From Candidatus Vecturithrix granuli (GTDB lineage: Bacteria > Moduliflexota > Moduliflexia > Moduliflexales > Moduliflexaceae), in NCBI GenBank assembly GCA_000739535.1, contig DF820463.1, positions 763,899-827,898 on the forward strand: 64,000 bases of DNA, given 5' to 3'. Under the pieces are notes generated by a model, which ran no database searches, was not told where the DNA came from, and was given only the letters and a program-made list of their open reading frames with translations. Position numbers and translations under genes: made by a program. Positions 5,897 to 62,281 of this stretch are shown in pieces; position 1 is the first letter of the stretch, and each line of letters begins with the position of its first letter.

Positions 5897-5983
5897 TTTC
5901 GGAAATAACTCTACACGAGAAACCAGGTTTTTTCCTAAAAACCTGGTTTCTTTGTCGCGCCCCATGTACGCTTATTTCCGAAA
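5897..5983. repeat. Nested palindrome in a 307-bp intergenic gap
   Basis: The outer arms TTTCGGAAATAA (5897-5908) and TTATTTCCGAAA (5972-5983) are perfect complements. They enclose an inner hairpin at about 5918-5952 whose arms contain AGAAACCAGG and CCTGGTTTCT. The rest of 5830-6136 shows no further gene. The inner word GAAACCAGG recurs inside the kinase gene at 11025-11050. Confidence 0.8.
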
Positions 5984-26373: not shown

Positions 26374-26406
26374 ACGTGCCCGGCACTTCAAAAGTGCCGG
26401 GCACGT
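26374..26406. repeat. Perfect GC-rich palindrome in the leader of the mannoside operon
   Basis: ACGTGCCCGGCACTT (26374-26388) and AAGTGCCGGGCACGT (26392-26406) form a 15-bp stem with a 3-base loop and no T-run. It lies 118 bases before the binding-protein start. Confidence 0.85.
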
Positions 26407-27873: not shown

Positions 27874-27932
27874 GGCTGAAGCCCGCTTCAGCCCATCTAA
27901 AAACCGAGTTTTTTCGAAAAACTCGGTTTTTT
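27874..27932 (+). terminator. Double hairpin after the binding-protein gene (intra-operon attenuator)
   Basis: GGCTGAAGC / GCTTCAGCC (27874-27893) is followed by AAACCGAGTTTTTTCG / AAAAACTCGGTTTTTT (27901-27932) with a T-run. The position matches the hairpin after ytfQ, so both importers appear to use partial termination behind the binding protein. Confidence 0.85.
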
Positions 27933-29663: not shown

Positions 29664-29765
29664 CTAAAGGGACTCAGGGGACTCAAGGGGCTAAAGGGAC
29701 TAAACCTGGAAATGCTTTAAACTTTCGTCACTTTAGTCCCTTCAGTCCTTTTAGTCCGTTGATTC
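29659..29765. repeat. Nonad-repeat palindrome between permease and mannosidase genes
   Basis: The left half repeats a 9-bp word of the form GGGACTAAA about five times. The right half repeats its complement, TTTAGTCCC, about four times. It begins at the permease stop and ends one base before the ATG at 29767, which therefore has no ordinary Shine-Dalgarno. Confidence 0.85.
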
Positions 29766-29766
29766 T

Positions 29767-32502
29767 ATGAAAAAACCTTATGAAATTCACGTGATCTCGC
29801 ATACCCATTGGGATCGGGAGTGGTATTTGACCTTTCAACAGTTTCGCCTGAAACTTGTTGAATTGGTGGATGGGTTACTTGAAATTCTTGAAACCAACCC
29901 GGAGTTTATCCATTTTAATTTTGACGGGCAGACCATTGTCTTGGAAGATTATCTGGAGATCAAACCCCAAAACAAAGAGCGTTTGAAACAGTATATTCAA
30001 GCAGGCAAGCTTGCGGTCGGCCCCTGGTATATTTTGCCTGATGAATTTCTGGTCAGCGCTGAGGCGACTATTCGTAACCTGATTTTAGGGCATCGCCTTG
30101 CCGCCGAGTTCGGCAAGGTCATGAAAGTTGGCTATATTCCTGATCCCTTCGGCCATATTTCGCAGATGCCGCAGATTTTAAGAGGCTTTGGCATTGATAA
30201 TATCATCCTCTGGCGCGGCTTTGGCGGGGAAGCGGATCAGACCAGTTCGGAATATTATTGGGACGCTCCTGACGGCTCTCGTGTATTGTTTGTGCATCTG
30301 CCGAATGTCGGTTATAGCGAAACCTTACATTTTCCGAACGCGACAAAACAGGCGGCGGTCTTAATCACGCGCCTGAAAGAAGCTTACCAACAACGCGCTA
30401 CCACGCCGTATCTGAGCATCTTTACCGGCTCTGACCACATCAAACCGCAAGCCGAACTGCCGCAGATTCTGAAACAGGTCAACGCCCAACTCGACGACGC
30501 GGTCGTGATGCAGAGCAGTTTGACAGAGTATATCGCTAAGCTGCGCGCAAGCGTTCCTGACGATTTGCAGGTCATGCGCGGTGAATTCCGAGGCGGATTG
30601 AAACATACCTATTTGCTCACTGGCGTGCTTTCGACCCGCATGTACCTGAAACAGGAGAATGAGAAGGCTCAAACCCTCCTGGAAAAATGGGCAGAGCCCT
30701 TTGCAGCCATGGTCTGGATGCTTGGCGTGAAAAAACCGGATTTTTGTCAAAAACCCGGTTTTTCGACCTACCCCCAGGAATTTCTGTGGCAGTCCTGGAA
30801 ATATCTGCTGCAAAATCATCCGCATGATAGTATCTGCGGGTGCAGCCTGGACGCGGTACATGAGCAGATGATGACCCGTTTTGCCTGGTCAGAGGAAATC
30901 GCTGAAGAACTGACCCAAAACAGCCTCAATGCGATTGCTGCGCAGATTGATACCTCAGATACCCCGTCAACCGTACAACATCTAGTTGTGTATAATCCAT
31001 TGGGTTGGACCCGCGACGAAGTCGCTCATGCGACCATTGATTTTCTGACTCCGGAACAAACGTCATCCGTCGAATTTCTGCCCTATATACCGAAGTCGCC
31101 TTATACAGAGGAAGTCAAGGGGTTTATCATCCGAGACGAACAGGGGCGCGAGATTCCTTACCAACTCATCAAAAAACAAATCTGTCAGAAAGTGTTGCCC
31201 AGTCCGGATTTAACGACCTTTCCAATTTTATTGCAGGTCGTTCAATTTGAAATCCTGCTGCATGCTCAAAACATCCCGCCTTGCGGCTATGCGGCCTATC
31301 AGGTCATTCCGCAAAAAACGTTGAAAACCTATTCTGCTGGAGTGCAGCAACTGCCTTATGGCATGGAAAATGAATATCTTCGTGTCAACATTCAGCCGAA
31401 TGGTTCACTGCTCATAACCGACAAAAGCACCGACAAGGTCTATCCTGATTGCCATGTCTTCGAAGATAGCGGCGATGTGGGTGATGAATATAACTATTCC
31501 TATCCGCTGCGCGACCGCATTGTATCGAGCATCGGATGTCCGGCAAACATTGAACTGGTGGAGCAAGGCCCGCTGCGCATCACTTACAAAGTAAGTCAGC
31601 GTCTAACTGTGCCGAAATGCGCCGAGCCTGACCGTCAGGGCCGCAGCCAGGAAACGGTTGAGATTCCAATTTCATTGTGTATTTCCCTGTCCGTCGGCGC
31701 AAAGCGCGTTGACATCACGACAGAATTGGAGAACACAGCCAGGGATCATCGCTTGCGCGTGCTTTTTCCCTCAGGAATTCACAGCGACTATTCCCACGCC
31801 GAAGGCCAGTTTGATGTGGTGCAGCGACCAATTCAACTGCCCGATCCCAACGATTACCAGATTGAAAAACCTTCTCCAACCTATCCGCAGCAATCCTTTG
31901 TAGATGTGAATGACGGCGAGGTTGGTCTGGCGGTGATCAACAAAGGACTGCCGGAATATGAGGTCAAGGACGACGCACGCCGCACCATTGCGCTGACCCT
32001 GCTGCGTGGCGTGGATCAAATCAGCCGCGGCGATTTATTGACAAGGCCAGGCGGAAATGCCGGTTGGCCTTGTCAAACCCCGGGCGGCCAATGTTTAAGA
32101 AAACATACATTCTACTACGCTCTGGCCCCTCATCGCGGAACCTGGCAAACAGGACTGGTGCACCGCGAAGCGCATCAGCATAATGTGCCCTGCCGCGTCG
32201 TACAGACCGATTCGCATCAGGGGAACTTGTCTCGAAAGATGAGCTTTATCGAGATTTCGCCGGCGTCATTGATCATCAGCGCGATCAAAAAGGCCGAAAC
32301 CCACGACGCCCTCATTATTCGATGCTACAATGCCTCGAATGAAGCGACAACAGGCGAAATACGGCTATATCAGCCAATCAAAAGTGCGGCATTGACGAAT
32401 CTCAATGAAGACATATTGGAGGCAGTTACGCCGAATTCAGAGCACACCGTCGCTTTTCAGGTTCGGCCCTGGGAAGTAAAAACCCTGAGTCTTGAGATGT
32501 AG
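29767..32502 (+). CDS. Alpha-mannosidase, glycoside hydrolase family 38
   Basis: 911 residues, retaining GH38 enzyme. The zinc-site motif is SHTHWDREWY (about 11-20) and the nucleophile Asp126 is in YIPDPFGH. The NHPHDSICGCS segment (about 350) and the C-terminal beta domains complete the family layout. No signal peptide, so it acts in the cytosol on imported alpha-mannosides. Between AAMVWMLG and YPQEFLW it carries an extra segment, VKKPDFCQKPGFST, coincident with a hairpin at 30731-30763; related enzymes join these motifs directly. The gene belongs to the importer operon. Confidence 0.92.
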   Translation: MKKPYEIHVISHTHWDREWYLTFQQFRLKLVELVDGLLEILETNPEFIHFNFDGQTIVLEDYLEIKPQNKERLKQYIQAGKLAVGPWYILPDEFLVSAEATIRNLILGHRLAAEFGKVMKVGYIPDPFGHISQMPQILRGFGIDNIILWRGFGGEADQTSSEYYWDAPDGSRVLFVHLPNVGYSETLHFPNATKQAAVLITRLKEAYQQRATTPYLSIFTGSDHIKPQAELPQILKQVNAQLDDAVVMQSSLTEYIAKLRASVPDDLQVMRGEFRGGLKHTYLLTGVLSTRMYLKQENEKAQTLLEKWAEPFAAMVWMLGVKKPDFCQKPGFSTYPQEFLWQSWKYLLQNHPHDSICGCSLDAVHEQMMTRFAWSEEIAEELTQNSLNAIAAQIDTSDTPSTVQHLVVYNPLGWTRDEVAHATIDFLTPEQTSSVEFLPYIPKSPYTEEVKGFIIRDEQGREIPYQLIKKQICQKVLPSPDLTTFPILLQVVQFEILLHAQNIPPCGYAAYQVIPQKTLKTYSAGVQQLPYGMENEYLRVNIQPNGSLLITDKSTDKVYPDCHVFEDSGDVGDEYNYSYPLRDRIVSSIGCPANIELVEQGPLRITYKVSQRLTVPKCAEPDRQGRSQETVEIPISLCISLSVGAKRVDITTELENTARDHRLRVLFPSGIHSDYSHAEGQFDVVQRPIQLPDPNDYQIEKPSPTYPQQSFVDVNDGEVGLAVINKGLPEYEVKDDARRTIALTLLRGVDQISRGDLLTRPGGNAGWPCQTPGGQCLRKHTFYYALAPHRGTWQTGLVHREAHQHNVPCRVVQTDSHQGNLSRKMSFIEISPASLIISAIKKAETHDALIIRCYNASNEATTGEIRLYQPIKSAALTNLNEDILEAVTPNSEHTVAFQVRPWEVKTLSLEM
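30731..30763. repeat. In-frame hairpin inside the GH38 gene
   Basis: AAAAACCGGATTTTTG and CAAAAACCCGGTTTTT pair with a bulge. They encode the extra residues VKKPDFCQKPGF. The word AAACCGGGTTT is the same as in the terminators at 49872 and 61283. Confidence 0.7.
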
Positions 32503-49853: not shown

Positions 49854-49871
49854 GTATTTTGGACATTTCAC

Positions 49872-49903
49872 AACCGGGTTTCTTAAAGAAACTCGGTTTT
49901 TTC
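49872..49903 (+). terminator. Terminator after the radical SAM gene
   Basis: AACCGGGTTTCTT and AAGAAACTCGGTT form a stem followed by a T-run. It is nearly the same sequence as the terminator at 61283-61316. Confidence 0.85.
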
Positions 49904-61276: not shown

Positions 61277-61282
61277 TAATTA

Positions 61283-61316
61283 AAAACCGGGTTTCTTGAA
61301 GAAACCCGGTTTTTTT
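61283..61316. terminator. Bidirectional terminator between nagA and nagB
   Basis: AAAAACCGGGTTTCTT and AAGAAACCCGGTTTTT form a perfect stem with A-run and T-run flanks. It serves both convergent genes. Confidence 0.9.
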
Positions 61317-62059: not shown

Positions 62060-62077
62060 AATTTCCTCCTGTGAAAA

Positions 62078-62140
62078 TGTAGCGCGAAACTCCAGTTTCG
62101 CGTATCATTGATAGCCGCGAAACTGGAGTTTCGCGCTACA
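62078..62140. repeat. TGTAGCG palindrome, copy 1
   Basis: Perfect 25-bp arms (62078-62102, 62116-62140). Each arm contains CGCGAAACTCCAGTTTCGCG, itself a 9-bp hairpin. It lies upstream of nagB. Confidence 0.95.
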
Positions 62141-62216
62141 TCCATCTTCCCCTGACCATAAAATTTTTATTCGCCGTGGTGTGTTTGCCAAAACGAATGA
62201 ATAACTCCTGTGAAAC

Positions 62217-62281
62217 TGTAGCGCGAAACTCCAGTTTCGCGCACCAGTAATACGGCCGCGAAACTGGAGTTTCGCGCTACA
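62217..62281. repeat. TGTAGCG palindrome, copy 2
   Basis: The same arms as copy 1 (62217-62241, 62257-62281) with a different loop. The left flank CTCCTGTGAAA is shared with copy 1, where it overlaps the nagB ribosome site. This points to duplication of a segment rather than two independent insertions. The rest of 62060-62327 has no gene. Confidence 0.95.

Follow-up and report, generated by a model that had tools for sequence, protein, structure and literature searches.

The mannosidase gene and its insertion

The window, as we call the whole stretch of 64,000 nucleotides that was analysed, contains a GH38 alpha-mannosidase gene of 911 aa (29767..32502, + strand) with an uninterrupted open reading frame. 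Its product matches all four GH38 Pfam domains (38N, mid, 38C and C2), and the closest solved structures are 3lvt/5kbp from E. faecalis and 2wyh from S. pyogenes, which share its domains and overall fold; the AlphaFold model of the protein also matches GH38 structures. Within this gene lies a 33-nt hairpin repeat (30731..30763, no strand assigned), AAAAACCGGATTTTT-GTC-AAAAACCCGGTTTTT, with one A.C mismatch in the stem. The same stretch can be read with a 1-nt centre as AAAAACCGGATTTTTG-T-CAAAAACCCGGTTTTT, the arms of 16+16 nt (30731-30746 and 30748-30763) being 94% complementary. Its predicted RNA fold reaches −13.8 kcal/mol (z −2.37), and this copy is absent from the output of a simple terminator scanner. 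An in-frame hairpin inside an alpha-mannosidase, as the preliminary description had it, is indeed present. Immediately 5' of the start codon (window positions 29671-29765), an inverted repeat of 34 nt was also observed, which is imperfect and has a high content of GGGACT/AGTCCC.

The protein was aligned with 15 GH38 homologues, about 35-54% identical to it, taken from other genomes and GTDB contigs. Residues 321-332, VKKPDFCQKPGF, are missing in 15/15 of these sequences, in which a conserved G is followed by two residues and then by a YP-like motif, uninterrupted. The alignment gives a net insertion of 36 nt, or 12 residues, at 30727..30762 (+ strand), with edges uncertain by 1-2 codons. Moreover, a 12-residue gap stands opposite the insert in 3lvt, and both 3lvt and 5kbp are without it in the alignments. 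It had been claimed that GH38 relatives run the flanking motifs together, which holds for all the homologues and for both structures; a loop of equal length without the hairpin, the finding that was to count against the claim, occurs in none of them. The extra residues are therefore real, but they number 12 net and not the 14 first counted, the other two being native residues beside the insert (the homologues keep two between G and YP). In the AlphaFold model (mean pLDDT 72.8), the insert forms a low-confidence loop between helices 291-318 and 337-348 and, as modelled, adds 12 residues to an inter-helix loop of the GH38 middle domain. A target-site duplication is not apparent at the GH38 site, and the homologues are distant; both points weigh against the explanation by insertion.

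A palindromic repeat family of high copy number

The mannosidase hairpin is one member of a large family. Allowing one mismatch at most, the window contains the word AAACCGGGTTT 18 times, mostly paired in hairpins, when 1.35 occurrences are expected. The genome comprises 8.38 Mb in 21 contigs, and the 2.83 Mb sampled for hairpins contained 195 with AAACCGGGTTT-like arms, that is 70 per Mb, when a reversed-sequence control gave 0. A fixed-spacing pattern tolerating up to three mismatches matched 446 places in the whole genome, and the family total can be put at roughly 450-600 copies of a unit of about 31-35 nt. This family pattern gave 0 matches in the three nearest genomes compared (one of the same family and two of the same order), and 35 and 7 matches in two distant genomes. 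In the distant genome G050 (C1:529268-534584), the 35 related hairpins are for many of them clustered, with spacings near 138 nt.

The stem variants occur as matched pairs, namely CCGGG/CCCGG (94), CCAGG/CCTGG (30) and CCGAG/CTCGG (25), with covariation at position 5 (GC 149, AT 36) and position 6 (GC 160, AT 28); pairing is therefore preserved via double, compensatory changes. Two end types are found, A..T (120) and G..C (69). Compared with this consensus, the mannosidase gene does hold the family hairpin, as had been noticed, but its first arm is a variant of the word, AAACCGGATTT.

Four other family copies are present in the window, none assigned to a strand. All are intergenic and recur, as the earlier reading of the sequence had anticipated, in positions that appear terminator-like. 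The first (5918..5951), with a CCAGG/CCTGG stem and G..C ends, lies between tandem genes. The second (27899..27931), with a CCGAG/CTCGG stem, follows the stop codon of a sugar-binding-protein gene by 60 nt and precedes two genes for permeases. The third (49869..49901) lies between convergent genes, as does the fourth (61282..61314), which is only 4-5 nt from both stop codons and folds at −20.7 kcal/mol (z −5.75). The 27899-27931 copy separates the gene of the solute-binding protein from those of its two permeases, and could make the permeases less strongly expressed than the binding protein.

Terminator-like placement

With gene positions taken from a home-made gene caller, and thus approximate, 124 of the 183 intergenic copies lie at most 45 nt after a stop codon, when 26.7 are expected, and 0 of 2000 simulations gave a value as high. 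The median distance of intergenic copies from the stop is 23 nt. Convergent gaps contain 37 copies against 17.9 expected, and divergent gaps 26 against 43.2 expected. The convergent excess is due to the A..T-ended subclass; the G..C-ended subclass has the stop-codon bias only. The intergenic copies of the window have strong predicted RNA folds (−15 to −21 kcal/mol) with T-tracts, and the family as a whole combines a GC stem and a T-tract with a position after stop codons, the features that define intrinsic terminators. As judged from sequence, the intergenic copies are thus placed and built like bidirectional intrinsic terminators, and they would be expected to terminate transcription. At this same level there is support for the proposal that an element resembling a terminator is also present as coding sequence, since the remaining copies are located and built as terminators are.

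Copies inside other genes

Only 4 of the 195 sampled copies lie well inside genes, though coding sequence makes up about 80% of the DNA. They are found in the mannosidase, in two TIR-NACHT paralogues (one common insertion) and in an alpha-2-macroglobulin-like (A2M) protein, so that the repeat recurs in at least one gene other than the mannosidase. All four are read as KPGF..KPGF, a frame that three independent events would share with a chance of 1 in 9. The copy at C18:373217 (locus L187, C18:372536-375811) lies in a TIR-NACHT-FGE protein and reads QKPGFLEKPGF. The paralogue nearest to it, L191 (73% identity across the part that matches), has QKPGFSQKPGF at the same place and in the same frame, and three more distant TIR-NACHT paralogues are without the repeat stretch. 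The arm codons are identical in L187 and L191, when codons for the same residue agree at 64% across the whole alignment, which hints, if weakly, at conservation. The A2M copy (C19:614403) reads QKPGFSEKPGF, and the homologues of this protein are too distant to define an insertion. Copies at gene ends lengthen C-termini. Nearly all of the six frames of the consensus repeat are open, and its survival in frame is therefore likely. Other repeats seem to be translated in the L187 protein as well, judging from a tandem stretch of SGVEG and from words of the FDSAQ type.

Origin of the insertion

The explanation that we favour, and consider very probable, is that a high-copy, lineage-specific palindromic repeat of 33 nt, terminator-like elsewhere, was inserted in frame into the GH38 gene and persists as a tolerated loop. 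According to this scenario, a copy would have entered the mannosidase gene with the frame kept and would be carried as a loop; it would be tolerated because stop codons are almost lacking in all of its frames, because it changes the length by a multiple of three and because it falls in a variable loop. The mannosidase hairpin, with its mismatched stem, folds more weakly than the intergenic copies, which is a point against this explanation. During translation, a ribosome trailing the RNA polymerase would suppress termination at the mannosidase hairpin. Indeed, ribosome-linked suppression has been measured in E. coli for terminators late in coding regions (PMC4824070), and by analogy the in-gene hairpin is probably silent as a terminator through translation.

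As for the family as a whole, its copies may have spread by a transposition-like process. An empty-site search that spanned all sampled copies gave one spanning filled/empty pair, outside genes (C18:263124 versus C19:315431-315550); the pair, whose flanks are only 75% identical, is consistent with a discrete unit having been gained or lost and shows no recognisable target-site duplication. Y1_Tnp has twelve matches genome-wide, of which five are in the sampled stretches, 3-38 kb from the nearest copy, and no transposase gene adjoins the family copies in these stretches. The repeat could accordingly be seen as a mobile palindromic element, MITE/RPE-like, that prefers sites near stop codons and has a terminator effect only incidentally. 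Such an element is favoured by the abundance of the repeat in this genome alone among those of its order, by the existence of a subclass whose ends and centre are conserved, by coding copies that keep the frame in genes unrelated to each other, and by the one empty site. Against it must be set the strong depletion of coding copies and the fact that neither a target-site duplication nor a partner transposase was identified. We regard it as a serious candidate that falls just short of being probable.

Alternatively, the family could consist of purely functional, immobile terminators, whose similarity is due to selection or gene conversion, and the in-gene copies would then result from rare copying of the template-switching type. 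The strong bias to positions just past stop codons and to convergent gaps agrees with immobile terminators, as do the compensatory stem changes, the lack of target-site duplications and the lack of Y1-family transposase genes beside copies. However, the conserved CCGGG core and GTC centre are not needed by a terminator, and gaps between convergent genes hold no excess of the G..C-ended subclass; the absence of copies from the three nearest relatives compared and the filled/empty pair also count against immobility. This alternative is possible but, in our opinion, rather doubtful. An origin from a phage or plasmid was rejected: viral contigs contain no exact match to the repeat, and phages and plasmids gave weak partial matches only.

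Terminators are made of uptake sequences in Neisseria and Haemophilus (PMC1852404), and the inverted arms might likewise be paired DNA-uptake sequences, as in the terminators of Neisseria and Pasteurellaceae; in both cases inverted pairs of a short word follow genes. Single words are, however, nearly absent here, exact arms being found 186 times in hairpins and 8 times alone (about 2 are expected by chance), which makes uptake sequences very improbable, unless the entire hairpin were the unit of uptake. Finally, inter-helix loops may vary in length among homologues, but an ordinary variable GH38 loop with a hairpin formed by chance is scarcely credible when none of the homologues has residues there and the 33-nt hairpin belongs to a repeat present in hundreds of copies and never matched in the control.

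Relation to known repeats

Rickettsia palindromic elements (RPE) were reportedly described by Ogata et al. in 2000 and 2002. In-frame palindromes in protein genes comprise these elements and, in passages of PMC10969869 and PMC2229807, others reported from Wolbachia and Methanocaldococcus. As with RPE, repeated palindromes with open frames are found here both between genes and in frame in unrelated protein genes, including conserved ones (GH38 and the TIR-NACHT paralogues). In contrast, RPE measure about 105-150 bp and are in large share intragenic, whereas the present unit has about 31-35 nt (33 nt in the mannosidase) and is nearly always intergenic with terminator-like placement; it also belongs to another lineage, and it is set apart from RPE by description, not by sequence.

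Terminator-like repeats are known as SPRITE in passages of PMC10969869, and, compared by description, they too are dispersed repeats that resemble intrinsic terminators; the in-frame coding copies found here are a difference, none being mentioned for SPRITE in those passages. The REP/REPIN sequences are likewise palindromic repeats of 20-40 bp, of high copy number and mostly extragenic, and carry a GTAG or CGTC tag adjoining the palindrome (PMC3733652). Here, the flank consensus is without a GTAG/CGTC tag and the Y1 (RAYT) transposase genes of the sampled stretches lie at a distance and are never adjacent, so that identity with REP/RAYT was rejected. No Rfam match was found within the window, and papers retrieved with the exact words of the repeat did not, judging by title and abstract, describe one of this kind.

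With the present case, protein-coding palindromic repeats are known outside Rickettsia, Wolbachia and Methanocaldococcus, and as an element of very small size whose copies elsewhere resemble the stock terminator of the genome. If copies are mobile, their insertion could provide bacteria with new terminators and would now and then make a protein longer. The in-gene copies would, moreover, be natural probes of transcription-translation coupling.

Double-palindrome architecture and other repeats

Each arm of the repeat is itself nearly palindromic (7+1+7 nt). This architecture is also present in 9 of 53 long hairpins of unrelated sequence, when 0.09 are expected from shuffled arms. One hairpin that shares it, AGACTCCCGGAGTCT-GAC-AGACTCCGGGAGTCT (C21:413204; L067:13204-13236), belongs to another sequence family and lies, apparently in frame, inside an open gene of 848 aa. 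One could imagine a class of mobile bidirectional terminators, made of a near-palindromic 15-mer (7+1+7), a spacer of 2-5 nt and the reverse complement, that includes several unrelated families and is sometimes read as protein in a single frame; such a class, which would supply transcription stops to genes, is a tentative suggestion that we think unlikely to hold in full.

In the window, a perfect hairpin with near-palindromic arms (ACGTGCCCGGCACTT) occupies positions 26374-26406, in the gap between the sugar-binding-protein gene and its divergent neighbour; it has the double-palindrome architecture of the repeat family and an unrelated sequence. A second abundant family of palindrome words, AAGCTCTGCTTT (AAGCTC[TG]GCTTT / AAGC[AC]GAGCTTT), gave 65 + 81 intergenic matches and 7 coding ones in the 2.83 Mb. 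Lastly, two long, near-identical hairpins (TGTAGCGCGAAACTCCAGTTTCGCG) stand in tandem at window positions 62077-62141 and 62217-62281, and a similar one is found at C18:15828.
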